Source of the DNA: Nitrospirota bacterium
GTDB taxonomy: Bacteria > Nitrospirota > 9FT-COMBO-42-15 > HDB-SIOI813
Length of the DNA stretch: 64,000 bases
NCBI GenBank assembly: GCA_016212215.1
Contig: JACRGV010000064.1
Span: 1 to 64,000, forward strand
Direction of reading: 5' to 3'
In this document: one piece after another, positions 11,201 to 33,937 of the stretch
Layout of the letters: each line of letters starts with the position of its first letter
How positions within the stretch are numbered: position 1 is the stretch's first letter
Position numbers and translations under genes: made by a program
The notes under the pieces: generated by a model
The model's database searches: none
What the model saw: only the letters and a program-made list of their open reading frames with translations
Told to the model about the DNA's origin: nothing

Positions 11201-11926
11201 CTCACCTACGAAGACATTGTAGCCCAGCCGAGAAGGTGTCTTACAAGTCCGCTTTGGACTGGTATCACATTTAGTGGTCGTGCATACAGCGCATACTGTA
11301 CACTGGTTGAGTACAGGATACCATGGAGAACATTGACCGGCAGACAGCACTTCTATCTTGATCATCCGGTTTATCTGGATTTCGGAGAGGCACTGTGTAC
11401 TCACAAGTACAAGCTGGATCCGAACAAGATGAATGAATTGGTTAAGAGTGACAAGAGTGGTGCTATTGTGCTCAACTTCATTACTCCGCACGGTAAGTGG
11501 CAGATTCATTCAACCCACTATGATAACCTCAGGATGCTTACACTCTCACGTGGAGGCAACTCTATCTGGCTTAATGATAAGGATTGTGAGAGCATAGGTA
11601 TTCAGGATAATGACTGGGTTGAAGCATACAATGATAATGGTATCTTCTGCGCAAGGGCAGTTGTCAGTGCCAGAATACCTGCAGGTGTTGCCTTCGCATA
11701 CCATTCTCAGGAGAGAACGGTAAACGTGCCCAAGTCTGAGCAGAGAGAAAAGAGAAGGGGAGGATTCCATAACAGTCTGACCAGACAGAGACTGAAACTT
11801 CCAACATTAAGCGTCGGCGGTTACGGACAGTTCTCCTATGGATTTAACGCATGGGGACCAATCCCCATCATCAGGGATACAAACATCCTTGTCAGAAAAA
11901 TGAGGAATCAGGAGGTGAAGTGGTAA
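8198..11926 (+). CDS. narG: Respiratory nitrate reductase alpha subunit (molybdopterin)
   Basis: A 1242-residue catalytic subunit, close to the 1247 of E. coli NarG. The N-terminus holds the FS0 [4Fe-4S] motif with a His ligand (STHGNNCTGGCSW) and YEPRGCQRG. The Mo-coordinating aspartate is Asp226 in ESADWYNSGY, equivalent to E. coli Asp222. There is no twin-arginine signal, so the enzyme should face the cytoplasm, as in NarGHI and unlike periplasmic nitrite oxidoreductases of Nitrospira. ATG 8198 follows AAAGGAGG and overlaps the cytochrome stop (ATGA). The reaction is nitrate to nitrite with quinol electrons through NarH and NarI. Operation in the nitrite-oxidising direction cannot be excluded from sequence alone. 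Confidence 0.95.
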   Translation: MTWIQDIVDPAKRGWEEFYRNRWQYDKTVRSTHGNNCTGGCSWMVYVKDGVITWELQAVDYEKLEQELPPYEPRGCQRGISASWYVYSPVRIKYPYMRGTLVDAWREAKSKHADPVDAWKSIVDNAELHKKIKWSRGKGGFRRSDWDTAAEIITSAQIHTIKKYGPDRNISFSPIPAMSQISYAGGGRYHQLIGAVSLSFYDYYTDLPNAHPQVWGEQTDVGESADWYNSGYVVITGATPNRTRTADVHFVSELRVAGAKVVVMAPDYSEVAKYADLWVPVKTGSDGAIWMGINHVILKEFYVDRQVPYFINYVKNYTDLPHLIKLRKTKNGFEMGRYLKAIDLKDYADTDNPEWKMAMWDTKTNKPVIVHGGMGFRYPKKKESHGKWNTLLKEEKTGTQIDPALSFIDTKDAAIECAFYELDTGDVYKRQVPVKYIESATEGKIAVTTVFDMMVSHHGVARPGLTGDFARNYDDDKAFSPAWQEKYTGIGRETIIQIAREFASNAEVTKGRSMVISGASSNHWFHSDLIYRAFINSLMLCGSVGRNGGGQNHYVGQERLAAFDSWGQFAHSLDWYKPPRLQNAPSWWYIQAQFWKYDLKMADYHVMPDTSVLDYEHCADWQVRAVRMGHLPFYPQFNKSSIAVADEAMKAGAKTDAEIIDYTVKQLKKGSLEFAVEDPDAPENWPRVWMIWRGNALGSSARGQEYFFKFVLGTHHNMDCTEVAKPYLKEMKFRESPLGKLDLLVDLNMRMNTTPTYCDIVLPAAHWYEKEDINTTDMHSYFQPMGAAVMPNWEAKSDWDAFQFLARKFDSIAKKHLPKPMKDVVTSPLAHDSPGEIAQPALNGYQDWKKGECEAIPGVTMPNMNVITRDFTQVYDRHRALGPNMKGKYGFHGIMVDGKPLYAEYIAKKHIDKVEIEGEQYIAMNDAREAANVEMFFSGCTNGEVLFRQWAEEEHHTGLHGEQYFEAKKSVKAIFGDEIKEDPEHWHGVTDEIAGPTRAQRLTYEDIVAQPRRCLTSPLWTGITFSGRAYSAYCTLVEYRIPWRTLTGRQHFYLDHPVYLDFGEALCTHKYKLDPNKMNELVKSDKSGAIVLNFITPHGKWQIHSTHYDNLRMLTLSRGGNSIWLNDKDCESIGIQDNDWVEAYNDNGIFCARAVVSARIPAGVAFAYHSQERTVNVPKSEQREKRRGGFHNSLTRQRLKLPTLSVGGYGQFSYGFNAWGPIPIIRDTNILVRKMRNQEVKW

Positions 11927-13449
11927 TGGACGTTAGAGCTAATTTTTCAATGAGCTTTAACCTTGACAAGTGCATTGGGTGTCACACCTGTAGTGTATCC
12001 TGTAAGAACATCTGGACCACTCGTCAAGGCGCGGAGTATATGTGGTGGAACAACGTAGAGACCAAACCAGGCACAGGTTATCCTGTGACCTGGGAGGATC
12101 AGGAGAGGTATAGAGGCGGCTGGGAAGTCAACAGCAGCGGGGCGCTTCGTTTGAAGCTATTAAAGGGCCCTGGAAAGATCAGGACTTTGGCAAATATATT
12201 CTTTCAGCCGAATCTGCCTACTATTGATGATTATTATGAACCTTTTACCTTTGATTATCAGAACCTATTTAATGCACCGGCAGGCGATGACCAGCCGGTA
12301 GCAAGGCCTAAGTCTCTGATAACAGGGGAATTCATGGAGAAGATATCACTTGGTCCAAACTGGGATGATGACATGGGAGGTTCACCTCTTTATGCGACTA
12401 ACGATCCGAACATGCGGAACCTTTCAGCATCACAGAAAGAGTGCCTGACCAAGTTTCACAAGCTCTTTTACTTCTATGTACCGAGGATTTGTAATCACTG
12501 TCTGAACCCGGGTTGTGTTGCATCCTGTCCATCAGGTGCCTTATACAAGAGGGGTGAAGACGGTATCGTTCTCCTTGATCAGGATATATGCCGTGCATGG
12601 AGATTCTGTGTAAGCGCATGTCCTTATAAAAAGCCCTATTACAACTGGGCAAATGGAAAGTCAGAAAAGTGTATATTCTGCTATCCAAGAGTTGAGACAG
12701 CACAGGCAAATGCCTGCGCACACTCATGTGTAGGAAGAATCAGGACAGTCGGTATACTCCTTTATGATGCAGAGAGGATTGAGGCAACTGCAAAACTTCC
12801 GGATGACAGGATTGTGGAAGGGATGAGGGATATTATCCTTGACCCCAAGGATCCAAAGGTCATTGAAGCAGCACGGAATGCAGGGATGGAAGATAATTGG
12901 ATTAAGGCAGCTCAGAATTCTCCGGCATATAATCTCTTTAAGAAATGGAGAATCTCTCTTCCTAATCATCCGGAGTTCAGGACACTTCCAATGAACTTCT
13001 ATATTCCACCTCTATCTCCGATTCTCCATCAGGCAAAGGCAGACAGGGGAGGTACGTTCGACCCTGAGGCTGATGATTTCTTCAATGAGATTGACAAGAT
13101 GAGGATACCATTAAAGTACCTTGCAAATCTGTTTGCAGCAGGCAATGAGGCCCTTGTCTTGGAATCATTGAGGAAACAGATGGCAGTAAGGATGTACTGG
13201 AGACAGAAGAGGTTTGGTGATGTCGGTGAAGGTGCAGTTAGGTCAGCAATGTCCCAGTGCGGATTAAGTGTTCAGGATGCTGAAGATATCTACAGGATTA
13301 ACTCTATTGCAACTTATGAAGAGAGGTTTGTTATACCTGTAACGCATCGTGAATCAAAGACTATCTCTGATCCGAGAAATATGTACGAGAAGAGAGGTAC
13401 TGTCGGTTTCGGAACCAAGAAAAGAGAATTTGTTGGAAGGGAGTGGTAA
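11926..13449 (+). CDS. narH: Nitrate reductase beta subunit (iron-sulfur)
   Basis: A 507-residue electron-transfer subunit (E. coli 512). Four cysteine clusters are visible: CIGCHTCSVSCKN near the N-terminus, CNHCLNPGCVASCP, CRAWRFCVSACP and CIFCYP with a final C-x3-C. The Trp in CRAWRFC replaces a ligand Cys and marks the [3Fe-4S] site typical of NarH. The start ATG overlaps the narG stop by one base (TAATG) and follows AGGAGGTG. It passes electrons from NarI haems to NarG. Confidence 0.95.
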   Translation: MDVRANFSMSFNLDKCIGCHTCSVSCKNIWTTRQGAEYMWWNNVETKPGTGYPVTWEDQERYRGGWEVNSSGALRLKLLKGPGKIRTLANIFFQPNLPTIDDYYEPFTFDYQNLFNAPAGDDQPVARPKSLITGEFMEKISLGPNWDDDMGGSPLYATNDPNMRNLSASQKECLTKFHKLFYFYVPRICNHCLNPGCVASCPSGALYKRGEDGIVLLDQDICRAWRFCVSACPYKKPYYNWANGKSEKCIFCYPRVETAQANACAHSCVGRIRTVGILLYDAERIEATAKLPDDRIVEGMRDIILDPKDPKVIEAARNAGMEDNWIKAAQNSPAYNLFKKWRISLPNHPEFRTLPMNFYIPPLSPILHQAKADRGGTFDPEADDFFNEIDKMRIPLKYLANLFAAGNEALVLESLRKQMAVRMYWRQKRFGDVGEGAVRSAMSQCGLSVQDAEDIYRINSIATYEERFVIPVTHRESKTISDPRNMYEKRGTVGFGTKKREFVGREW

Positions 13450-13452
13450 ATA

Positions 13453-14019
13453 ATGGAGACACTCGTGGGTAAAGACATTTATACTCAGCTCGCAAGCATG
13501 TTTGATTATCCTGGTGATATGGGTAAAATTGTCAGCAAGGTTGACGAATTGATAAATAATTTCAGCAGCATGGAAAAACTGCCGCCTGATGTGGTGAATT
13601 CTGTAAAAGAATTTAAGAAGGCGATTGTGAAATTACCTATAGATGAACTGCAGGTAATATACTCTTATACCTTCGAGATGTCTTCTGATTTTACACTCGA
13701 TATGGGTTCTCATATTTATGATGGTTTTAAAAGGTCGGATAATCTTGTCAACATAAAGACCATGTACAGGAGGTTTGAATTTCCTTTTGAGACATTGGGC
13801 AAGGGGGAGCTTCCGGACCACCTCCCCCTTGTACTCAGGTTTTTGGGTTTTGTGAAAGAAGAAGGGGTAAAAAGGGATTTTGAGAAGGATTTTCTTATAA
13901 AATGCCTTGAAAAAGTCTATAAAAATTTCGCAAAGAGACAGGATAACCCTTACCATCATGTTATCAACGCTGTTTATAAGATTATAGACAGGGATGTAAA
14001 GGAGGAGGCAAATAAATGA
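13453..14019 (+). CDS. narJ: Nitrate reductase assembly chaperone (NarJ/TorD family)
   Basis: A 188-residue, all-helical cytoplasmic protein in the narJ position between narH and narI. It shows NarJ-like features: LASMFDYPG near the N-terminus, the central YSYTFEMSSDFTLDMGSHI and DHLPLVLRFLGF, matching the DELPDHLP-LEF type motif of the family. It should hold apo-NarGH until the Mo cofactor is inserted. It is not part of the final enzyme. Start is three bases after the narH stop. Confidence 0.88.
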   Translation: METLVGKDIYTQLASMFDYPGDMGKIVSKVDELINNFSSMEKLPPDVVNSVKEFKKAIVKLPIDELQVIYSYTFEMSSDFTLDMGSHIYDGFKRSDNLVNIKTMYRRFEFPFETLGKGELPDHLPLVLRFLGFVKEEGVKRDFEKDFLIKCLEKVYKNFAKRQDNPYHHVINAVYKIIDRDVKEEANK

Positions 14020-14717
14020 TTAACAATATATTATTCGGTGCGTTTCCTTATGTATTCATTACGATATGCATCGTCGGACTGATATTCAGATACAGGACTA
14101 ACAGATACTCATGGTCGAGTCAGTCATCAGAATTTTTGGAAAACTCAGTCCTGTTCTATGGGTCGTTCCCATGGCATTATGGAATTATAACGATTCTTCT
14201 TGTTCATATTTTCGGGCTATTCTTTCCAAGAGGGATTCTTGCATGGAATGCCGTACCAGTAAGGCTTTACTTACTTGAGCTTTCCGGCCTTGCATTAGGA
14301 TTGCTTGCATTCTTCGGACTTCTCGTATTTACCTACAGGAGGCTTACTGACAACAGGGTAAAGGCAGTAACAACAGGATGGGATGTTATTACACTTATTG
14401 TTCTGTTAATACAGGTTGCAACAGGACTCCTGAATGCTATCCTGTACAGATGGGGTTCAAATTGGTATGCAGGAACAGCAGTGCCGTGGATGTGGTCAAT
14501 CTTCACATTCCAGCCTGATGCCGGCTATGTAGCTGGACTACGTTTGATTACAAAAGTGCATATCTTTAATGCAATGATATTCATTGGATTAATGCCGTTT
14601 ACAAGGCTTGCACATTTTGTGGTTATCAGGCCTTATGCATATCTATGGAGACCATATCAGCAGGTTAGATGGTATAACAGAAACCCAAAGACAGAGAACA
14701 TTGTACAGTATAAGTAA
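14016..14717 (+). CDS. narI: Nitrate reductase gamma subunit, dihaem cytochrome b
   Basis: A 233-residue inner-membrane protein with five membrane helices. The four haem-b ligands are in NarI spacing: His54 and His64 (10 apart, WHYGIITILLVH) and His182 and His200 (18 apart, KVHIFNAM...RLAH), matching E. coli His56/66/187/205. It oxidises quinol and passes electrons to NarH. Start ATG overlaps narJ by four bases and follows AAGGAGGAGG. Last gene of the nar operon; a strong terminator follows. Confidence 0.94.
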   Translation: MINNILFGAFPYVFITICIVGLIFRYRTNRYSWSSQSSEFLENSVLFYGSFPWHYGIITILLVHIFGLFFPRGILAWNAVPVRLYLLELSGLALGLLAFFGLLVFTYRRLTDNRVKAVTTGWDVITLIVLLIQVATGLLNAILYRWGSNWYAGTAVPWMWSIFTFQPDAGYVAGLRLITKVHIFNAMIFIGLMPFTRLAHFVVIRPYAYLWRPYQQVRWYNRNPKTENIVQYK

Positions 14718-20211: not shown

Positions 20212-20292
20212 CTCTTCTTTCTTACTTCTTACTTCTTGCATCTTGCTTCTAACTTCTGCTCACAGCTTACAGCTTACTGCTTACAGCTCACT
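20212..20292. repeat. Family D repeat between convergent genes
   Basis: CTTACTTCTT, CTTGCATCTTGCTTC and then CAGCTTACAGCTTACTGCTT units separate two convergent genes and reach into the Hsp70 stop region. Confidence 0.7.
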
Positions 20293-23149
20293 GAAGCCTT
20301 ATCCCCGTATCCACCTCCCTATGGTTCTTTCCATACTTTATCTTTATCTGTCCTGAATCATTGAGTGTGAATGTTACATGAACCTCTTCATCTATAGTTT
20401 CATCAAGCTGCAGTGTGATAATCTTCAGTTCTTTTAAGGCCATATCCTCTTCAGGTTTCATCACCTGTTTTATAAATTCAACGCCCCCCTGTTTTTCCCA
20501 TCTCCTTGTTATGTTTTTTTCAGGGATTTCAAATAACTCAAGGAACATCTCATTCTGTTCGCCTACTGTCCGGGCCGGATTTATCCTGAATGTTTTTTCA
20601 AATGGATATGCCTCCCCTTTTTCAAATATAATCTCATAAGCGGGCGGTACTTGTTTGTCCTCTGTCTGATATTTGATGGCATAAGCCAGGCCTAAATGTT
20701 TGTCACTAATATTCCTTGATGCAAACATAGCCGCCCCCATTGCAACTGCTGAAAATGGGCTGTGGTTATAGATTGAGTTATTCTCCTCAAGCCTTGGAAA
20801 TAGAGAGGATACCTTCTCTTTAAAAGATGGTATCTGGGATGAACCGCCGGTAAGCAGTATTGCCTCTATCTTATCTTTCTTAATACCAACCTTCTCCGCC
20901 TTCCACAGGATATACGATATTGACTGATCTACGCCTTTATAAAAGTCGTGATTGTTCAGTACCTCTTCAAAGACCTTTCTGTTAATCTTACATATATCAG
21001 TACCGTTCCAGGTAAACACTGCTTCGTTTTTGTCGGATAGCGATATCTTAATGTCTTCTGCCTTTTTTATTAATTCAGGGGAAGGTTTATCTCCGCCATG
21101 TCCTAGCTTTTCACCGAGGTATCCTGCAAGCCATATATCAATATCATGACCGCCGAGCATCTTGGATCTGTCCGGTTTAGCAATAACATGGACATTATTT
21201 ATGTTAAGCCGCAGTATCATGGTATCGAGGGTACTCCCGCCAAAATCTATAATCAATACTATCTTATCTTTCTGGTCCGCCATCTGATAACCGATGGCCG
21301 CTGCAAGGGGCTCTTCAAGTATCTCAATCTCTGTCCCCTTCATTATCCTGCCCAGTATCTCTCTTACTGACCGTTTATATCCAGGGAATCCGATTGGCAC
21401 GGTTGTGTAAAGTTTGTCTGATATTCCGCCTGAGAACCCTGATAGCATTGTCATCCATTTTGATGTAGTGTATACCTCATCACGGAGATGCTGATGCAGT
21501 ATTGTAAGAAACTTCTCCATGTATTTTTTGGATTCCTTCTGATTTTCCAGAAGCATCTTCTTAAAGTTTATTATTACATCATTATCCGAGGTATTAACTG
21601 CCGCAGCGCCTATTATATCTGATTTGGGGCTTAGTATTGATGGGACAATAGAGACACCGTTAAGCTGTCTTGAGATTGATTTCAGAGTGACGTACTCCGG
21701 CTGGACACCTTTTTTCTTCCTCATAATAACCGTATTGGTAGCCCCAATGTCTATTGATATGCAGGACTTTTCTTCAACCTTAACGGACATATTTTCAATT
21801 GCCTGCTCTCTGCGGGAGGTGAAGTGCTCATGACTGAAGACAGGTTTGAGAATCTCTTTCCCATGAAAACGTTTTTTTAGTTCTTCAAGCCGGTCAACGA
21901 TTGTACTGACTGCATCTCTTAAATCTTTGGGTTGAATCCATATATGGGTATATGGTTTAAGGATGTCTATAAGACGTATATCATTTAACATCGGCCCGAT
22001 TATTTCAAGCTCCTTTGCAAGCATTTCCCCGTACTTTAGTTTTGTATTCTTTGACTTTGTCGAGTCCTTGATAACCCCTTTATCCTCAGCAACAAGTATG
22101 AAGTCAATTATCTCCATCGGCGAGAGTTCTTTTATCATCTTTGATATTGAATAGAATTCAAGTATATTTTTCAGGGCATACTGTATCTGTGGGAAAAAGT
22201 CAGGATTTTTAGCAAAGTCTTTCAGCATCTCTATAAGGGCGTGGATCTTTGCCAGCGGGGAAACAATCTCAGCAGATGCCTTGAATGCCTCCTTCACGGT
22301 CTCTTTATATAATGGATATAATTCGTGTGTTGAACGAACCTCATCTGCGATATAGCAAAGTGCATATTTCCTGTAATAAGGTTCATCAATAGTAGTAGCC
22401 GCAGCAATGGCGAGTTTTATAGCATCTTTATATAAGGTAAGGAACTCTCCTGTCTTAGGTATCTCCTTTGCTATTCCAAGCAGTGTGTATTGCCTGTAGA
22501 AGGCATAATCACAGCTCTTGGGGAGAGTCCTTGCTATTTCATCCAGTAGTTTCCTGTCATAATAAGTTGCCTGGGATACCTGATTTATTGTAGTTGAAAG
22601 ATTAAGTGCATGTTTAAATGCATTAAGGCGCAGGGGATTAAGCTCGTGTGTTTTCGGGAGGTCAGTTGCAATAGTGAGAAGTGCGTGTATCCGGTGCTGT
22701 GAATCCTTTATCTCATTTGCTGCCTTTATTGCGTTTGATATTGCCTGAACATAGAGCGGGTGCAGGGATTGTTTTTCCTGGATTTCATCCGCTATCTTCA
22801 GCAGTGAGTCCTTCCTTGTCTTTGGGTCTTCGATATTATTTGATGCAAGTACCGCATCTTTCATCACAGCGGCATAAAGGGAAGAGAACTCAGGATCACG
22901 CGGTATTTCCCCTGCTATCACAAGGAGCAGTGCCTTCCTGTCAGAAGGGGATTTTACACTGTTTGCAAGGCTGACACATAACTGGTATGCGGACATAGAC
23001 TCATAAGTCTTGGGTATCTCCTTTATACAATTGATACAGCGTACAAGGATCCTCTTTTTGTCATGAATATCAGTAATATTTTTTACAGCATTAAAAGTAT
23101 CTCTAATGCACGATATTTCTTCATGAGGTGTGGTTTCTGTTGTACTCAT
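20288..23149 (-). CDS. Hsp70-type ATPase with N-terminal helical repeats
   Basis: A 953-residue cytoplasmic protein. Residues 1-330 hold about seven helical repeats of roughly 41 residues with recurring IxDPxxRxxALxxIAxEIPKT and LYxxAIxxAIxAA blocks. Residues about 330-450 form a helical linker. From 460 an Hsp70/actin-fold ATPase follows: phosphate-1 loop IDIGATNT (Asp467), EEPLAAAIGY, phosphate-2 IIDFGGSTLD, MLGGHDID and adenosine motif LLTGGSSQIPSF. A short beta-like tail ends the protein. Classical DnaK substrate-lid sequences are not seen. It is the last gene of the AAA+/Ycf35 operon. Start follows GGAGA. Function unknown: a repeat-scaffold chaperone is the best description. Confidence 0.85.
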   Translation of the reverse strand: MSTTETTPHEEISCIRDTFNAVKNITDIHDKKRILVRCINCIKEIPKTYESMSAYQLCVSLANSVKSPSDRKALLLVIAGEIPRDPEFSSLYAAVMKDAVLASNNIEDPKTRKDSLLKIADEIQEKQSLHPLYVQAISNAIKAANEIKDSQHRIHALLTIATDLPKTHELNPLRLNAFKHALNLSTTINQVSQATYYDRKLLDEIARTLPKSCDYAFYRQYTLLGIAKEIPKTGEFLTLYKDAIKLAIAAATTIDEPYYRKYALCYIADEVRSTHELYPLYKETVKEAFKASAEIVSPLAKIHALIEMLKDFAKNPDFFPQIQYALKNILEFYSISKMIKELSPMEIIDFILVAEDKGVIKDSTKSKNTKLKYGEMLAKELEIIGPMLNDIRLIDILKPYTHIWIQPKDLRDAVSTIVDRLEELKKRFHGKEILKPVFSHEHFTSRREQAIENMSVKVEEKSCISIDIGATNTVIMRKKKGVQPEYVTLKSISRQLNGVSIVPSILSPKSDIIGAAAVNTSDNDVIINFKKMLLENQKESKKYMEKFLTILHQHLRDEVYTTSKWMTMLSGFSGGISDKLYTTVPIGFPGYKRSVREILGRIMKGTEIEILEEPLAAAIGYQMADQKDKIVLIIDFGGSTLDTMILRLNINNVHVIAKPDRSKMLGGHDIDIWLAGYLGEKLGHGGDKPSPELIKKAEDIKISLSDKNEAVFTWNGTDICKINRKVFEEVLNNHDFYKGVDQSISYILWKAEKVGIKKDKIEAILLTGGSSQIPSFKEKVSSLFPRLEENNSIYNHSPFSAVAMGAAMFASRNISDKHLGLAYAIKYQTEDKQVPPAYEIIFEKGEAYPFEKTFRINPARTVGEQNEMFLELFEIPEKNITRRWEKQGGVEFIKQVMKPEEDMALKELKIITLQLDETIDEEVHVTFTLNDSGQIKIKYGKNHREVDTGIRLQ

Positions 23150-23164
23150 TTAAAAATCTCCATA

Positions 23165-23299
23165 GCTCACCCCCACCCTGACCCTCCCCCCTCAAGGGGG
23201 AGGGAATAATCTTAGTTCCCTCTTCTCTCAAGGGAAGGGGAATTAACATTAGCCGCCCTCTCCCCTTGCGGGAGAGGGTCAGGGTGAGGGGGGCTTTGC
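23165..23299. repeat. Family A repeat cluster inside the operon spacer
   Basis: CTCACCCCCACCCTGACCCTCC with CTCAAGGGGGAGGG, a middle CCCTCTTCTCTCAAGGGAAGG unit, and CCCTCTCCCCTTGCGGGAGAGGG followed by TCAGGGTGAGG. It spans nearly the whole gap between the radical SAM stop and the Hsp70 start. Confidence 0.85.
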
Positions 23300-23311: not shown

Positions 23312-24019
23312 TCAAGCTGCCTTATATATATCAACCCTGCTGAAGCCTGTTTCCTTTATAGTCCCATCCCTGCTGATAATTATTTCAACCTTTGCCGGCA
23401 TATAAAAATCCTTTTCCTGATAGCGGTTTGATAAGAATAATAATCTCTGATTTGTAGAACCCCTCGCAAGGAGGGTCGGTTCTTTCTGTTCATCTTTGTA
23501 TGCACCGTCTATGAGGACGTCAATATGGTTTAAAACAGGCTGGTGCTCACCCCCACCCTTACCCTCCCCCCTCAAGGGGGAGGAAATAAACTTAGCACCC
23601 TCTACCCAATCTATAAAGTTTGGGAGAGGTTTTTCCGTTTTCCCCTCCCCTTGCGGGAGGGAATTAAGGGGAGGGGGGGTATAGCCTTTAAGTTCTTCAT
23701 AGTTAAACCCTGTATAAACCACTGTTGACAACCCATATTCCTCTTTTGCCGCTTTCAAAAGCTGTAACAATCCCTTAGCCTGTAGAAATGGCTCGCCGCC
23801 GCTGACAGTGATACCCTCTGTATCCGGCAGGAGGAAGTTCTTCAGGATATCTTCCGCAGAGTATAATTGATTTTCTTCAAACGAATGGGTAGCAGGATTA
23901 AAACAACCCAAGCATTTCCGGCTGCACCCCTGAAAGAATACAACCAATCTCTTTCCCGGGCCGTTCACCCTTGAACAGGGTATGATTGAATGTACATTGA
24001 TTATATTATGACGACCCAT
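23312..24019 (-). CDS. NrdG-like radical SAM protein with in-frame repeat insertion
   Basis: A 235-residue protein of the short radical SAM activase type (NrdG/single 4Fe-4S domain). It has the SAM cluster motif C-x3-C-x2-C (CSRKCLGC), the TVSGGEPFLQ glycine motif and VLIDGAY. About 45 residues between YEELKGY and QPVLNHIDVLIDG are a translated family A repeat (LPQGEG, SPLRGEGKGGGEH), so the ancestral protein was about 190 residues. The reading frame is kept. It lies 14 bp after the DUF2997 gene. The likely job is generating a radical or modifying a partner of the cluster; no glycyl radical enzyme is nearby. Confidence 0.85.
   Translation of the reverse strand: MGRHNIINVHSIIPCSRVNGPGKRLVVFFQGCSRKCLGCFNPATHSFEENQLYSAEDILKNFLLPDTEGITVSGGEPFLQAKGLLQLLKAAKEEYGLSTVVYTGFNYEELKGYTPPPLNSLPQGEGKTEKPLPNFIDWVEGAKFISSPLRGEGKGGGEHQPVLNHIDVLIDGAYKDEQKEPTLLARGSTNQRLLFLSNRYQEKDFYMPAKVEIIISRDGTIKETGFSRVDIYKAA
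23547..23682. repeat. Family A repeat inserted in the radical SAM gene
   Basis: Two palindromic units, CTCACCCCCACCCTTACCC with CTCAAGGGGGAGG and CCCCTCCCCTTGCGGGAGGG, lie within the coding frame without causing a stop. They encode a Gly/Pro/Glu-rich loop not expected in the family. Confidence 0.85.
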
Positions 24020-24032
24020 CTGACACCATGCT

Positions 24033-24215
24033 TTATTCTTTTATCTTCAGCCTCTCATAAGCATAAGCCTCTGTCTCATCCTTTACATCAAACTTTTCTA
24101 CCTTACCAAGCACCTTCTTTAAATGCTCTGCGACCTCAGTGCAGTCATTAAAGATAGAAGAATCAATCTCCACCTTACCGTCTTTAGTAATCTTTATCTT
24201 TATCTGCCGATCCAT
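24033..24215 (-). CDS. Small DUF2997-like protein
   Basis: A 60-residue protein, MDRQIKIKITKDGKVEIDSS followed by a helix CTEVAEHLKKVLG and VEKFDVKDE. The two-strand start with I-x-I-x3-G-x-V-x-x and the central cysteine-containing helix match DUF2997. That family is typically encoded next to DUF1257 (Ycf35) and a Ycf46-type ATPase, as found here. Function unknown. It is 60 bp after the DUF1257 gene, a family D repeat filling the gap. Confidence 0.72.
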   Translation of the reverse strand: MDRQIKIKITKDGKVEIDSSIFNDCTEVAEHLKKVLGKVEKFDVKDETEAYAYERLKIKE

Positions 24216-24274: not shown

Positions 24275-24616
24275 TTATCCTTTCAACATTATCACAATCT
24301 CCCCTGCCTGTTCCGTCTCCCTTGCTATCTCAAAATCAAGCGGGAGGTTATCTTTGATAGATTCATACGCATAAAGCTGTTTTAGCCTGTCTGTAATCTC
24401 TCTTGCCGGTCGTGAGATTCCTGCTATTTCAAAATTATTGGTCTCTTTTTCTTTTGTTATATTAACAATCTCACCTTCCCTGTTTACCTCTATCCGCTCT
24501 TTCTTCTCATTTACTATAAACTTTGTAATCTCCCCCCGCTTCTGCATCTCTGAGAGTGCTGCTACTATATATTTTTTATTGGATAGCTCAGTTTTAATTA
24601 CACAATAAAACGACAT
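24275..24616 (-). CDS. Ycf35-like protein (DUF1257)
   Basis: A 113-residue cytoplasmic protein. The start MSFYCVIKTELSNKKYIVAA resembles the Ycf35/DUF1257 start (MSHFT-IKT-I-D...LKAAL), and the end ITDRLKQLYAYESIKDN plus FEIARETEQAGEIVIMLKG matches the conserved Y-AY-I and GEIxIxL region of cyanobacterial and plastid Ycf35. The middle is shorter and more diverged. Function of the family is unknown; it co-occurs with Ycf46 and DUF2997. It begins 55 bp after the ATPase gene, the gap again being family D repeat. Confidence 0.72.
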   Translation of the reverse strand: MSFYCVIKTELSNKKYIVAALSEMQKRGEITKFIVNEKKERIEVNREGEIVNITKEKETNNFEIAGISRPAREITDRLKQLYAYESIKDNLPLDFEIARETEQAGEIVIMLKG

Positions 24617-24671: not shown

Positions 24672-26807
24672 TTACGCTATGCTATTATATTTAAAAAACT
24701 CCGCCAATGCCTCGCCATTCATTAATATATCTCTCTCAAGCGATTTTATAAGTTGTAAAATTACCTCTTTGTTCCTTGAGAGGATTGATTCAGTTTCTGT
24801 TCTTGCATTATCCAGAATCCTCTGGACATCCTCAAATATCTCTCTGCCTGACATCAGTGCAATATCCTGCAAAGCAATGAGGCTTGCATGTTTTATGGTA
24901 TCCCCGAAACCATATTCTACTACCATCTTTCGCGAGATTTTTGTGGCCTCAAGGAGGTCCTGAGATGCGCCGACGGTCTTTAAATCAGAACCGTGATATT
25001 CTTCCTCTGAGACCATACCTCCGAGAATGACGCCGATCTCTTTCTGTAGGTCAGCCTTTGTAAAAAGGTTATCCATTGCCTCACCTGTAGGTATGAATGC
25101 AGTAAAGTCCTTGTAACTATCTATGCTGACGAAAACAGGTGTTTTTTTGAAGTGATGCCACATCATCAATGTATGACCTGCCTCGTGAACCGCAATGTTC
25201 CTCTTTTCCTGGTCACCAAGGTTCTCGACCCTTTGCATAAAGAGTGAACGTGATGCGGGCCTTGCACGTCTGTAACTCCATGTCCTTAATTCATCAATCT
25301 CTTCCTTCTTCAAGACAGATAGCGGGGTGATATTTCTTATTGATTTAAGAAGTGTTGCCTGTGTCAGGTTAAGAGATGACAGTCCGTCAATCATTGTCTC
25401 AACTTCCTCATCTCTCCTGCCCTGGTGAAGCATATTGAAGGTGGTCACAATGGAATCCTTCACAGCCTGTTCTATCTCAGCACCTGTGTACCCTTGACTG
25501 TTCTGGGCAAGCTCTACCATATTCAGGCGGTATATGCTCTGCCCTCTGCTCTCAAGATGAATTTTGAATATCTCTTCCCTCTCCTCAACACTCGGCAGAT
25601 CTACGAAGAAGACCTCATCATACCTCCCCTTTCTCCATAACTCAGGGGGTAGGTTTCTCGGATTATTTGCAGTGGCAATAACAAATACAGGTTTTACCTT
25701 TTCCTGCAGCCATGTAATAAACGTACCAAAGACCCTGAGCTGGGTACCGGAATCACCCTGAAATCCGCTGACCCCCCCAAATGCCTTGTCTATCTCATCA
25801 ATCCAGAGTATGCAGGGGCTTACTGCTTCTGCCAACTGGATGGCCCTGCGGATGTTTTTCTCTGATTCACCGACAGTAGAACCGAACAGCTTCCCTACAT
25901 CAAGCCTCAGAAGGGGGAGGTTCCATATCCCTGCCAATGCCTTACAGCAGAGACTCTTTCCGGAACCCGGCACCCCGATAAGAAGAAGTCCCCTCGGTGT
26001 ATCAAGGCCAAGTGTATCAACCTTCTCCTTACTCAGACGGAAAACATGCTCCCTTTCAATAAACCACCTCTTTATCTCATCAAGACCGCCTATATGTTCT
26101 ATGGTTTCTTTATGTGTATAGTAATCCAGTATCTTCTGTTTTTTTATGATCTGCTGTTTCTCTTCCTGAATGAATGATATGCAGTCCTCGTTTAACTGAC
26201 CCTTATTAAGGCTTATGGCCTTTCTCACAACCCTTCTGATATTGTCCATGGAGAGGCCCTGCAGTGACTTATATAATATTGCCCTTTGAGAGGGGTACCA
26301 CTTCTCAGGGATCATCCTTGCAAAGGTTGATGAAACCATCTCTTCAATCTCATCATACTCAGGTAAAGAGAGTTCAATGACTATGATGTCTTCCTCTAAT
26401 TCCGGCGGTATCTCAGTCAGTGTCGGTGAAAGGATGCAGATGGTATTCATGGAGTTTCGCTCATCAATAATGGTTGGGATGTCCCTGAACTTTCTCAGAA
26501 ACTCATGGGAGTTGAAGTATCCTGAAATGTCTTTTAATAAGAAGAGATTGCTTTCAGACTCGCTTTTAACAATCTTTTCCTCAATAGTAGTAAGTACCTT
26601 TTCCCTTCCAAGAGGGTCCCATTTCTTTTTCTCACCGCTGTAAAGCCCCCTTGACACAGACCATGCCCAGTACTTGAAGTCTATGGTCTTACACAACTCC
26701 TCCATGATCTTCTCAACCCTTCGTTCCTCAAAGGATACAAGCCACAAAACAGGATACTTCGCCTCAATATGGATTTTGATTTCATTCTGGAATTCTTTAG
26801 TATTCAT
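24672..26807 (-). CDS. Ycf46-type AAA+ ATPase fused to an FtsH-like M41 metallopeptidase
   Basis: A 711-residue cytoplasmic protein with no membrane helix. Residues 1-220 match the degenerate N-terminal ATPase-like part of Ycf46 (EAKYPVLWLVSFEERRVEKI). Residues 240-500 are an active AAA+ domain: Walker A GVPGSGKS (Lys284), the Ycf46-typical DVGKLFGSTVGESEKNIRRA, Walker B CILWIDEIDKAFGG, and FVIATANNPRNLPPELWRKG. Residues 530-700 resemble peptidase M41: zinc motif HEAGH (His541, Glu542, His545) and third ligand Asp617 in GASQDLLEATKI, as in FtsH. It is the first gene of the operon with a strong GGGAGGAG site. A soluble ATP-dependent protease is the natural inference. Confidence 0.88.
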   Translation of the reverse strand: MNTKEFQNEIKIHIEAKYPVLWLVSFEERRVEKIMEELCKTIDFKYWAWSVSRGLYSGEKKKWDPLGREKVLTTIEEKIVKSESESNLFLLKDISGYFNSHEFLRKFRDIPTIIDERNSMNTICILSPTLTEIPPELEEDIIVIELSLPEYDEIEEMVSSTFARMIPEKWYPSQRAILYKSLQGLSMDNIRRVVRKAISLNKGQLNEDCISFIQEEKQQIIKKQKILDYYTHKETIEHIGGLDEIKRWFIEREHVFRLSKEKVDTLGLDTPRGLLLIGVPGSGKSLCCKALAGIWNLPLLRLDVGKLFGSTVGESEKNIRRAIQLAEAVSPCILWIDEIDKAFGGVSGFQGDSGTQLRVFGTFITWLQEKVKPVFVIATANNPRNLPPELWRKGRYDEVFFVDLPSVEEREEIFKIHLESRGQSIYRLNMVELAQNSQGYTGAEIEQAVKDSIVTTFNMLHQGRRDEEVETMIDGLSSLNLTQATLLKSIRNITPLSVLKKEEIDELRTWSYRRARPASRSLFMQRVENLGDQEKRNIAVHEAGHTLMMWHHFKKTPVFVSIDSYKDFTAFIPTGEAMDNLFTKADLQKEIGVILGGMVSEEEYHGSDLKTVGASQDLLEATKISRKMVVEYGFGDTIKHASLIALQDIALMSGREIFEDVQRILDNARTETESILSRNKEVILQLIKSLERDILMNGEALAEFFKYNSIA

Positions 26808-26862: not shown

Positions 26863-26880
26863 ACACTGTTTTGGAAATAA

Positions 26881-26922
26881 AAAGGGGTAAAGTTTATTGT
26901 TTAAATAGACTTTACCCCTTTC
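26881..26922 (-). terminator. Rho-independent terminator of the leftward radical SAM gene
   Basis: The perfect arms AAAGGGGTAAAGT and ACTTTACCCCTTT enclose a 15-base loop. On the minus strand the stem is followed by TTTTTATTT. It separates the radical SAM gene from the AAA+ operon. Confidence 0.85.
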
Positions 26923-26957
26923 TTAAAAGCACGGTAAATAGTTACGTTTAACGTCTT

Positions 26958-28664
26958 CTAAGACGAAACCCCCATCTTCTTTGCTATCAGCTCAAGCTCT
27001 TTCGGGTTGCCCTCTGATATAATCTTTTCCTTGAGTATATCCGGGGGGATCATGAACTTTTTCTCAATCCTCTTGCGATAGACAGGGGCACTGTTATAGG
27101 CACAGAACGGGTACAGGCGGCCCTTAGGGTCAATATAATGAATAACACACCTCATGACCCTTTCAACGCTGAAGTTATAGGCATCCATGAAGTGCATGCC
27201 TGCTACGAAGAAGTGGTTGTAGTAGCGGCCGCTGCCATTTTTACCTACATATATCCTTCGTAAATTCTGGTCCTGAAAACCATCAAGAGATGCAAGAAAC
27301 TTATCAAAGGTGAGACCCTTTGGTGCATTCTTCTCATTATAATATTTCTTCAGCCTGTTCATTACCTTGAGTTTGGAAAGTAGTTCAAACCTTGAGGGCT
27401 TGAGTGTCCTTGAGAGTTCTACCACCTCTCTCAGAAAGTTTTCCATATCAATAAAAGAACTGACAGGAGTTACATTTCCGTCATCATCTGCGTAAAGATA
27501 AGTACCCTGTGAGCAGTGAGGATGAAGTGAAAGTGTAAAAACCGGGTCCCCGTTGATTGCTGATGCAAGTTTAGAGAGTGGAGATGTACACCCGATCGGG
27601 AACCAGTCCCTCATTGCATCTATGTAGCCTGTCTGCCTCTCTATGTCGCGTCCGAGGTCGCCCATGGTATATCTCTTTTCAAGCCTGTGGCTCTGACTGT
27701 ATCTTCCGGTAAACGTGACCGGCTGAAATGCAATGCCGCTTATTACATCACTGTTTTTTACTGCAAACCTTACTATATCCCCGACCTGATTGTCGTTGAG
27801 GCCGCGTACTATAACAGGCACAAGGATAACATCCATCTGAAGCCTTCTTGCATTTTCAATTGCCTTTATCTTATATTCAAATATTGATTTTGAGCGTGTC
27901 TTTTTATATATCTCATCTGAAAGGCCGTCAAACTGGAGATAGAGGTTTTGCACACCTGCCTCCTTTGCTGCCTGGGCAAACTCAAAGTCTGCCATTTTAA
28001 TACCATTTGTATTTACCTGGATGTAATAGAACCCGAGTTCTTTTGCCTTTTTTACAATATCCAGGAAGTCCGGCCTTACTGTCGGTTCACCGCCTGAGAA
28101 TTGTATCCTGTCGGCCTTAACCGGCTTCTGATTGATAAGGGTCTCAAGCATCTTTGCTACTTCATCAAACGAGGGTTCATAGAGATAACCGGAGGTATTG
28201 GCATTTGCAAAACATACAGGGCAGGTAAGGTTACATCTGTTGGTTAAATCCATTATGGGCAGGCCGCTGTGGCTAAGGTGCATGTTACACAGTCCGCACT
28301 GTGTGGGGCAGATCGTTGCGTTCTTTACAGGAGGGTCTTCCACACCTTTCCCATCACCATACCAGAATTTCTCACATTTGAAATAAAGGTCAATATCTCC
28401 GTAAAAGATGTCTTTGAAATGTCCGTGTTCTTTGCAGGTCTTTTCTATCCAGACCTTACCGTTTGCAGGATAGAGTGTGGCTTTGATGATCTCCATACAT
28501 TCCGGGCAGACTGAATCTATTTCTTTGGGCAGGCCAAGTTTGACAGGTGTGACTTCAGTACCAGAGTAGGTTATAGACGGTGCACATCTTGATTCAGGGT
28601 TTGTGGTTTTAGGATGTGCGGCTGTTGTCCTAAAGGATTCTAATACATTTTCTATTAGGCCCAT
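26958..28664 (-). CDS. Radical SAM enzyme of the MJ0619/tetraether-synthase type
   Basis: A 568-residue protein. The N-terminal part has a zinc-ribbon-like VCPECMEIIKA...CKEHGHF and an extra cysteine set CPTQCGLCNMHLSHSG. The radical SAM core follows with C-x3-C-x2-C in LTNRCNLTCPVCFANA, IQFSGGEPTVRPD and a long C-terminal domain with further Cys (CVIHYID...YPFCAYN). The CGLC-x2-H-x-SH motif directly before the core is the hallmark of the MJ0619/Tes-like group, whose members methylate pterins or couple lipid alkyl chains. Substrate here is unknown. ATG follows AGGAGG. It is a monocistronic unit with its own terminator. Confidence 0.82.
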   Translation of the reverse strand: MGLIENVLESFRTTAAHPKTTNPESRCAPSITYSGTEVTPVKLGLPKEIDSVCPECMEIIKATLYPANGKVWIEKTCKEHGHFKDIFYGDIDLYFKCEKFWYGDGKGVEDPPVKNATICPTQCGLCNMHLSHSGLPIMDLTNRCNLTCPVCFANANTSGYLYEPSFDEVAKMLETLINQKPVKADRIQFSGGEPTVRPDFLDIVKKAKELGFYYIQVNTNGIKMADFEFAQAAKEAGVQNLYLQFDGLSDEIYKKTRSKSIFEYKIKAIENARRLQMDVILVPVIVRGLNDNQVGDIVRFAVKNSDVISGIAFQPVTFTGRYSQSHRLEKRYTMGDLGRDIERQTGYIDAMRDWFPIGCTSPLSKLASAINGDPVFTLSLHPHCSQGTYLYADDDGNVTPVSSFIDMENFLREVVELSRTLKPSRFELLSKLKVMNRLKKYYNEKNAPKGLTFDKFLASLDGFQDQNLRRIYVGKNGSGRYYNHFFVAGMHFMDAYNFSVERVMRCVIHYIDPKGRLYPFCAYNSAPVYRKRIEKKFMIPPDILKEKIISEGNPKELELIAKKMGVSS

Positions 28665-32713: not shown

Positions 32714-33937
32714 GTTATGCGTATAATCGGCCTTATGTCCGGCACATCACACGATGGCGTAGACGCCGCACTTGTGGAGATTTCTTATCCCCTCCCCTTC
32801 AAGGGAAAGGGTGCCAAGAGTATTCCCTCCCCCTTGAGGGGGGAGGGTCAGGGTGGGGGTGAGCAACGAGGTTTTTTTGATAACATAACTATTACCCTCC
32901 TCAAACATATTCACACTCCTTATCCAGTTTCTCTCAGAGCAGAAATCAGAGATTCATTCAACGGCAATACAGAGCTGATATGCCGATTGAATTTCAGATT
33001 GGGTGAGGTCTTTTCAGAGGCCGTATTATCATTACTCAAAAAAACCGGATTTAAACCGGAAGATATAAATGCTATTGCTTCTCACGGTCAGACGGTATAT
33101 CATATCCCGCCATCCGGCAGAAGGACAGGCTCAACACTGCAAATAGGTGAGGCGTCAGTAATTTCAGAACGAACCGGCATATTGACAATATCCGATTTCA
33201 GAACAGCAGATATGGCTGCAGGCGGGCAAGGGGCGCCGCTTGTGCCTATGGCAGATTATCTGCTATTTAAAACGGAGGGGAAGGTCAGGGCGGTATTAAA
33301 TATAGGCGGCATTGCTAATGTAACCATAATCAGGGAGCATATTGATGACACAGTTGCCTTTGATACAGGGCCGGGAAATTCTCTTATTGATGAGGCAATG
33401 AGGATATGGTCTAAAGGAAAGCTTACCCTTGATTTCAACGGCTCATTTGCGAGTTTAGGAAAACCAATCCACAGTTTGTTGATCGAACTGCTGTCTCATC
33501 CTTTTTTCAGTAAGAGGCCGCCGAAATCTACAGGAAGAGAAACATTTGGAACTGATTTGGCAGAGGAGATTTTTTATAGATACAGGAAGGCAGAGCCTCA
33601 GGATATTGTGTCAACACTCACGCACCTTACGGCAATAACTGTCTATCGTGCAATAAAAAAGTTTCATCCGGATGAGGTTATTTTAACCGGCGGCGGTGTA
33701 AAAAACAGATTGCTTATGAGTCGTATCAATGAAGGATTTAAAAAAGAGGGTATTGCGGTAAATCAAATTTCTTTATACGGCATACCCCCTCAGGCAAAAG
33801 AGGCCGTCAGTTTTGCAATCCTCGGTTACCGGACGCTAAACAAATTACATGGAAATGTCCCTTCAGCAACAGGGGCAAAACATAAGGCTATACTGGGGAA
33901 GATTACAATATCCCCTCCCCTTCAAGGGGAGGGATAG
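32714..33937 (+). CDS. anmK: Anhydro-N-acetylmuramic acid kinase with in-frame repeat insertion
   Basis: A 407-residue sugar kinase that converts 1,6-anhydroMurNAc to MurNAc-6-phosphate. It has IGLMSGTSHDGVDAALVEI, ASHGQTVYH, ISDFRTADMAAGGQGAPLVP, NIGGIANVT, DTGPGNSLID and LTGGGVKNRLLM. Two foreign segments come from family A repeats: about 27 residues at 25-51 (YPLPFKGKG, SPLRGEGQGGGEQ) and the last residues ISPPLQGEG, where a repeat supplies the stop. Without them it would be near the family's 370-380. ATG 32714 gives the family start MRIIGLMSGTS; ATGs at 32684 and 32696 inside murQ are also open. It lies 7 bp after murQ. Confidence 0.92.
   Translation, partial: VMRIIGLMSGTSHDGVDAALVEISYPLPFKGKGAKSIPSPLRGEGQGGGEQRGFFDNITITLLKHIHTPYPVSLRAEIRDSFNGNTELICRLNFRLGEVFSEAVLSLLKKTGFKPEDINAIASHGQTVYHIPPSGRRTGSTLQIGEASVISERTGILTISDFRTADMAAGGQGAPLVPMADYLLFKTEGKVRAVLNIGGIANVTIIREHIDDTVAFDTGPGNSLIDEAMRIWSKGKLTLDFNGSFASLGKPIHSLLIELLSHPFFSKRPPKSTGRETFGTDLAEEIFYRYRKAEPQDIVSTLTHLTAITVYRAIKKFHPDEVILTGGGVKNRLLMSRINEGFKKEGIAVNQISLYGIPPQAKEAVSFAILGYRTLNKLHGNVPSATGAKHKAILGKITISPPLQGEG
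32786..32865. repeat. Family A repeat inserted in anmK
   Basis: CCCCTCCCCTTCAAGGGAAAGG and CCCTCCCCCTTGAGGGGGGAGG with GTCAGGGTGGGGGTGAG stay in frame in the second strand region of AnmK, between LVEIS and GFFDNITITLLKHI. Confidence 0.88.

Follow-up and report, generated by a model that had tools for sequence, protein, structure and literature searches.

A Ycf46-like AAA ATPase fused to an M41 peptidase in a conserved five-gene operon, a predicted cytosolic zinc protease

Results

Organisation of the locus

The window analysed in this study is a stretch of 64,000 nt of contig JACRGV010000064.1 (GCA_016212215.1, Nitrospirota bacterium). On its (-) strand lies a gene with an ATG start for a 711-aa AAA-M41 fusion protein, P0001 (24672..26807). 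Downstream of it, on the same strand, come genes for a DUF1257 (Ycf35)-like protein of 113 aa (24275..24616), a DUF2997 protein of 60 aa (24033..24215), an NrdG-like radical-SAM/4Fe-4S single-cluster protein of 235 aa (23312..24019; Fer4_12 8.9e-33, Radical_SAM 1.5e-8) and an Hsp70-family protein of 953 aa (20288..23149; HSP70 2.2e-21). Downstream sequence of at least 1.6 kb was available at 30 fusion loci, and each of these had all four partners in unchanged order; 6 of the 36 fusion loci end too early for this count, from which 11 duplicates or pieces of counted genomes were omitted.

The 113-aa protein is assigned to DUF1257 by an HMM built from four annotated family members, because the Pfam model scores below threshold: it does not match the window protein, and the 4 of 14 relatives that it does match reach 0.02 at best. 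The four-member HMM recognised the window copy (L001) at 2.1e-8 and its relatives down to 2.4e-11. The structural model of this protein (pLDDT 85) gave a best Foldseek value of only 0.024, with none at E 0.001 or better; its VIA matches were middling, the top one having Z 8.7 (rmsd 2.6, 76 aligned). The DUF2997 protein scored 6.3e-5 in Pfam (23.2 bits, cut-off 24.1), and its Cys25 (24141..24143, (-)) is a cysteine in 44/44 aligned rows, an alignment that contains the window gene twice and includes 6 of the non-annotated hits from outside the fusion loci. For the 4Fe-4S protein, whose alignment likewise counts the window gene twice, the motif CX3CX2C was present in all 31 rows. In the Hsp70-family protein, N-terminal repeats with a period of about 41 aa precede the nucleotide-binding domain.

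A terminator-like hairpin followed by a T-run separates the fusion gene from the gene just upstream (26879..26923, (-); -21.6 kcal/mol, z -5.7), and none of 200 shuffles was equally stable. The terminator scan, in which loops are limited to 8 bases, misses this hairpin, and the promoter and terminator scans of the region stayed at or below shuffle level. The position of the hairpin suggests that the transcription unit probably begins at the fusion gene. The upstream gene (26958-28664, (-)) encodes the tetraether lipid synthase Tes (NF045702, 557 bits vs 450); it was rejected as an operon member, since the hairpin lies between the two genes and Tes is found near the fusion in some loci only.

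Several other features of the region were recorded. Window positions 11851-14717 (+) encode the beta, delta and gamma subunits of nitrate reductase. A GC-rich palindromic repeat is present in three copies in the window (23167-23202 (-), 23547-23582 (-) and 32827-32862 (+)) and in 103 copies in the genome when up to 3 mismatches are allowed, the reversed control giving 0. The repeat search placed the copy at 23547..23582 (-) inside the radical-SAM gene, in frame, and the protein that holds it is 235 aa long in the window vs at most 205 aa in the other aligned loci. At one locus that was recovered from two collections (L040 and L098, one stretch), the 4Fe-4S gene is broken across two frames, and the fusion gene on this contig (G009:C70) showed one in-frame TAG in the search.

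Architecture of the fusion protein

The fusion protein consists of three parts, whose coordinates all refer to the (-) strand. The N-terminal domain D1 (residues 1-226, 26130..26807) has no Walker A motif, its P-loop site being occupied by SFEERR. The AAA+ domain D2 (residues about 233-460, 25428..26111) matches Pfam AAA at residues 274-403 (2.9e-30), and alignments with FtsH place its pore loop 1 at S310-T311-V312-G313 (25869..25880). The C-terminal M41 peptidase domain (residues about 528-711, 24675..25226), assigned by Pfam and by a match to FtsH structures, contains the zinc-binding and catalytic motif HEAGH at 541-545 (25173..25187) and the third zinc ligand D617 (24957..24959), which aligns with the GA-x-x-D of FtsH.

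A fusion of a Ycf46-type AAA ATPase with an FtsH-like M41 peptidase had been proposed for this gene from inspection of the sequence, and the motifs on which this original prediction was founded are all present (DVGKLFGSTVGESE, WRKGRYDEVFF, HEAGH at 541-545, and GASQDLLEAT with D617). The prediction would have been contradicted by a C-terminal domain that aligns with M41 at HExxH only. Peptidase_M41 is matched at residues 531-690 (2.4e-21; 76.9 bits, cut-off 29.9) over profile positions 4-177 of 191, and the C-terminal 183 aa alone match solved FtsH protease structures, with 2di4 at the top (6.1e-13). Since the latter match covers nearly the whole domain, the similarity is not confined to HExxH.

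An AlphaFold2 model of the fusion, built from 52 sequences, was of moderate confidence (mean pLDDT 74, pTM 0.56), residues 563-580 and parts of the AAA domain being the low-confidence stretches. The structural comparison with FtsH that had been suggested along with the original prediction agreed with it: modelled residues 529-711 matched the FtsH protease 2di4_A with Z 18.5 (rmsd 3.2, 166 aligned, 33% identity). A coincidental HExxH was thus rejected as an explanation of the M41 match on the basis of Pfam M41, the 2di4 hit and the fold comparison. Modelled residues 2-221 matched p97 D1 (5ifs_B; Z 12.9, rmsd 3.5, 202 aligned). Because of this match and the replacement of the P-loop by SFEERR, the N-terminus is most plausibly a degenerate AAA domain. 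At the level of sequence, the single chain is therefore composed of an inactive D1, an active D2 in which both arginine fingers are present, and a complete M41 domain.

The 19-residue hydropathy scan found no membrane helix in the fusion protein, in accordance with what had been predicted. The top value was 1.27, vs 2.23 for the FtsH of the same genome; hydropathy exceeded 2.0 in 25 of 27 standard FtsH ORFs, the two exceptions being short (378 and 496 aa).

Conservation and selection

Conservation was assessed on 30 aligned full-length fusions, that is, the window's and 29 others that are 68-84% identical to it. In D2, Walker A K284/S285, Walker B D337/E338, N381 and R392/R395 were invariant in 30/30 fusions, as were H541, E542, H545 and D617 of the peptidase, while E27 and E28 of D1 were kept in 23/23 Ycf46-only rows as well. 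The middle of HExxH is variable, and HEIGH, HEAAH and HESGH were also seen. The M41 domain is the faster-evolving part of the protein, its mean identity to the window protein being 0.59 vs 0.85 for the AAA part. The dN/dS of the M41 part, calculated only from pairs with unsaturated dS, ranged from 0.04 to 0.16, which indicates that the domain is kept by purifying selection.

Pore loop 1 reads STVG in the aligned fusion and MFVG in FtsH. None of the 30 aligned fusions has the FtsH aromatic in this loop, T311 being invariant in all of them, and the equivalent position in 23 Ycf46-only proteins is occupied by Leu (21), Ile (1) or Tyr (1), so that it is non-aromatic in 22/23. In FtsH, the pore-loop aromatic grips the substrate. 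Its absence suggests that the unfolding power of the fusion may be weak. Neither this absence nor the degenerate N-terminal AAA domain nor the operon had been part of the original prediction.

Relatives and origin of the fusion

We scanned bacterial and archaeal genomes and kept the best 80 matches, corresponding to 79 loci. Among them were 36 fusion loci (L007-L042) from MAGs labelled Nitrospirae, Deltaproteobacteria and a few others. Further Ycf46 proteins with a C-terminal M41 domain, which the original prediction had proposed to look for, do therefore exist, and together with additional genomes these loci rule out an assembly artefact in a single genome. At least 43 of the best 80 matches were M41-free relatives of ~500 residues that end near query residue 520 and come chiefly from cyanobacteria and planctomycetes.

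Fusion genes were found in 11/295 sampled Nitrospirota genomes and in 12/297 genomes of the phylum of locus L013, where a 13th match (G401) is without M41; a second sampling, largely of the same phylum, again gave 12/297 and the same exception. In cyanobacteria, 124/194 genomes match the query at 1e-60, and none of the matches listed extends beyond query residue 549. In the phylum of the planctomycete locus L054, 14/199 genomes match at 1e-105, and none of the 14 extends beyond residue 528. Most relatives in the wider AAA family are without M41, and proteolysis is therefore not the core job of this family. A Pfam M41 search of 20 genomes, 16 of which contain the fusion and 4 do not, detected a standard FtsH also in 15 of the 16 fusion genomes; in the genome G071, the fusion was the only M41 protein found.

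For the trees, 17 loci (duplicates, partial or odd) were left out, and the Ycf46-only loci L056-L085 were thinned to every third. In the AAA tree (106 rows), which was made by a quick method and has some long branches, the fusions form a single clade (support 100) within the Ycf46-like group, and another branch (100) parts this group from FtsH plus CDC48. The AAA part is therefore not a truncated FtsH, and its placement upholds the Ycf46-type assignment of the original prediction. The name Ycf46-like is one that we take to be appropriate for this group; in the profile libraries searched, none of the hits obtained with the fusion was to a curated Ycf46 model. In the tree of M41 domains, which has 63 rows, the fusions lie on one side of a branch (100). 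A single clade in both trees fits one fusion event, and the protein probably arose once, by the addition of M41 to a Ycf46-like AAA, and then spread by descent or transfer.

Matches to the query were also seen outside chromosomes. At 1e-20 they comprised 796 plasmid records, many of them from Klebsiella and Escherichia. The enterobacterial plasmid proteins H21-H28 were considered as further combinations of AAA and M41 and set aside: the one examined, L109 (Klebsiella plasmid pKqs_SB610_4), gave no M41 hit. It is a Ycf46-like AAA that carries a Biotin_lipoyl domain at its C-terminus, and its gene lies among VWA, CARF, PP2C and kinase genes. The IMG/VR viral contigs L100, L101, L102 and L105 carry Ycf46-like AAA genes, several of them near DUF2997.

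Partner genes beside M41-free AAA genes

Genes of the kinds found in the operon also accompany AAA genes without M41, including ones from other phyla. At a locus from Deferrisomatales (L049), AAA, DUF1257 (3.5e-24) and DUF2997 (3.1e-17) genes are adjacent and in that order, and at 12 more Ycf46-only loci, nearly all titled planctomycetes, DUF2997 lies 388-570 bases downstream. A Pseudanabaena plasmid carries a set of GrpE, Hsp70, DUF1257, DUF2997 and AAA genes, and subsets of a related gene set are present on plasmids of Geminocystis, Planktothrix, Bacillus licheniformis and Paenarthrobacter; on a Treponema plasmid, the 4Fe-4S protein adjoins AAA. Pfam confirmed DUF2997 in the viral contigs L100 and L105. 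No linked partners were found at most of the cyanobacterial chromosomal relatives or at the 8 Nitrospirota Ycf46-only loci examined. The occurrence of the same partners beside M41-free AAA genes indicates that this AAA family repeatedly occurs next to DUF1257, DUF2997 and Fe-S genes and that the M41 fusion represents its protease-bearing branch.

Discussion

Predicted function of the operon

The reading that we favour is that the fusion is a cytosolic AAA+ zinc protease, predicted to act in protein quality control, within a module linked to redox state or iron. From its sequence we infer that the fusion degrades proteins in an ATP-dependent manner. Its action would be that of a soluble FtsH-like zinc metalloprotease built on another motor: a hexamer with three stacked layers, namely the inactive AAA domains, the ATPase ring and a protease disk, in which the ring would pass cytosolic proteins to the M41 chamber. 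The conservation of the operon suggests that the fusion and its four partners could form one module. The repeat-Hsp70 may select clients or hand them over, the small DUF1257-like and DUF2997 proteins may be adaptors or have a regulatory role, and the radical-SAM/4Fe-4S protein could couple the activity to the redox or iron state, perhaps via the invariant DUF2997 cysteine. Support for a redox link is indirect and comes by analogy from Synechocystis, where fed7 clusters with DUF2997 and ycf35 genes; its product, Fed7, has a DnaJ-like binding partner and is required during oxidative, metal and iron stress (PMC4284462).

A more specific scheme, which we put forward as a doubtful conjecture, is that the radical-SAM protein modifies the region of the invariant DUF2997 cysteine, whereupon DUF2997 and the DUF1257/Ycf35-like protein dock on the degenerate tier and license the destruction of clients delivered by the repeat-Hsp70. 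If this were true, the M41-free forms, including Ycf46/Ycf35 of cyanobacteria and red-algal plastids, would be an unfoldase-only machine, and two orphan plastid genes would gain a function.

The operon could instead be a conflict (defence) module akin to the FtsH ternary systems (Kaur 2020, PMC7159879), with the helical-repeat Hsp70 in place of MoxR and vWA and with M41 as the effector. The two-AAA layout with a dead D1, the radical SAM gene and the small ORFs are shared with these systems as described there (PMC7159879), the occurrence of the fusion is patchy (11/295 and 12/297 genomes in the two phyla), and Ycf46-like AAA genes with DUF2997 are also located on plasmids and viral contigs. However, neither MoxR nor vWA was present among the operon genes and the 10 flanking ORFs of the window locus, PADLOC yielded only AAA-domain matches to IetA, and the five-gene content, invariant in 30/30 loci, and the strongly conserved AAA are unlike the diversifying conflict systems. 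We therefore regard a defence function as rather unlikely. The absence of MoxR and vWA from the scanned window genes and the unvarying operon place protein quality control first, with moderate confidence.

The fusion might also be a processing enzyme rather than a degrading one, whose AAA part remodels a partner and whose M41 domain performs limited cleavage of, for example, a radical-SAM-modified DUF2997 protein or the DUF1257-like protein. The non-aromatic pore loop would suit such a role, as would the small protein with the invariant cysteine, which always adjoins the radical SAM gene in fusion loci, and radical-SAM modification of peptides has been proposed for related systems (Kaur et al., PMC7159879). 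Against this, DUF2997 and DUF1257 also accompany M41-free AAA genes, so neither needs a fused protease, and we consider this possibility quite improbable. A catalytically dead M41 that acts solely as a disk for oligomerisation or binding, like plant FtsHi, is highly improbable, given that H541, E542, H545 and D617 are invariant in 30/30 fusions, even though inactive M41 relatives exist (PMC9020784) and the middle residues of HExxH vary.

Novelty and significance

The component parts were known earlier, as was the AAA type with a degenerate D1 and an active D2, including its location beside radical SAM genes (Kaur 2020). A literature search that covered few subscription journals returned no published account of the M41 fusion in a fixed operon, no publication joining ycf46 to peptidase M41 or ycf35 to Hsp70 and AAA, and none on an FtsH without its membrane part. 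A soluble form of M41 with a different motor would mean that this peptidase can be driven by another AAA family. The Ycf46 and Ycf35 families are retained in red-algal plastids with no function reported, and ycf35 and ycf46 are two of the four genes whose presence in these plastids follows habitat (PMC5940233). The fixed operon ties Ycf46-like and Ycf35-like proteins to a protease, an Fe-S enzyme and an Hsp70, and this linkage makes the question of the orphan plastid genes biochemically testable.

Comparison with known systems

The fusion resembles the FtsH, m-AAA and i-AAA proteases (TIGR01241, Pfam M41) in the order of AAA+ and a complete M41 with HExxH and a downstream Asp. FtsH-family M41 proteases have been described as membrane-anchored (PMC9020784), whereas the fusion is without a membrane anchor and has an additional degenerate AAA domain. 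Its AAA part also lies outside the FtsH clade and carries STVG instead of MFVG in the pore loop, and the FtsH_fam model, with 166.6 bits, stays below its cut-off of 600. With the Ycf46-like AAA ATPases of cyanobacteria and planctomycetes the fusion shares the degenerate D1, the active D2 and a common clade, and it is ~37-41% identical to them up to residue 520; those proteins, however, stop near residue 520-550 and have no M41. Two AAA tiers are likewise present in Cdc48/p97, and p97 is not known to have a protease. The Ycf2-FtsHi complexes use FtsH-derived motors, whereas the motor of the fusion is of the Ycf46 type. The IetAS / IteA anti-phage system has an S8 protease as partner. No S8 protease gene was found among the operon genes, the IteA/IetA model NF042959 reached 95 bits on the whole fusion (510 needed), and the PADLOC matches to IetA were confined to the AAA domain.

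The FtsH ternary systems contain an AAA protein in which the first domain is inactive and the second active, and some of them a radical SAM protein thought to modify peptides (Kaur 2020, PMC7159879). These AAA domains, the radical SAM gene and a small ORF are points of likeness to the operon studied here. The systems are, however, defined by MoxR and vWA, neither of which was found by the window operon, and the words M41 and DUF2997 are missing from the main text of PMC7159879. In the cyanobacterial DUF2997-ycf35-fed7 cluster, fed7 encodes a ferredoxin and not a radical-SAM protein, and the cluster as listed in PMC4284462 comprises no AAA or protease gene; it nevertheless resembles the operon in that DUF2997 and DUF1257 are situated by a 4Fe-4S gene and that a link to a chaperone, in that case DnaJ, is present.
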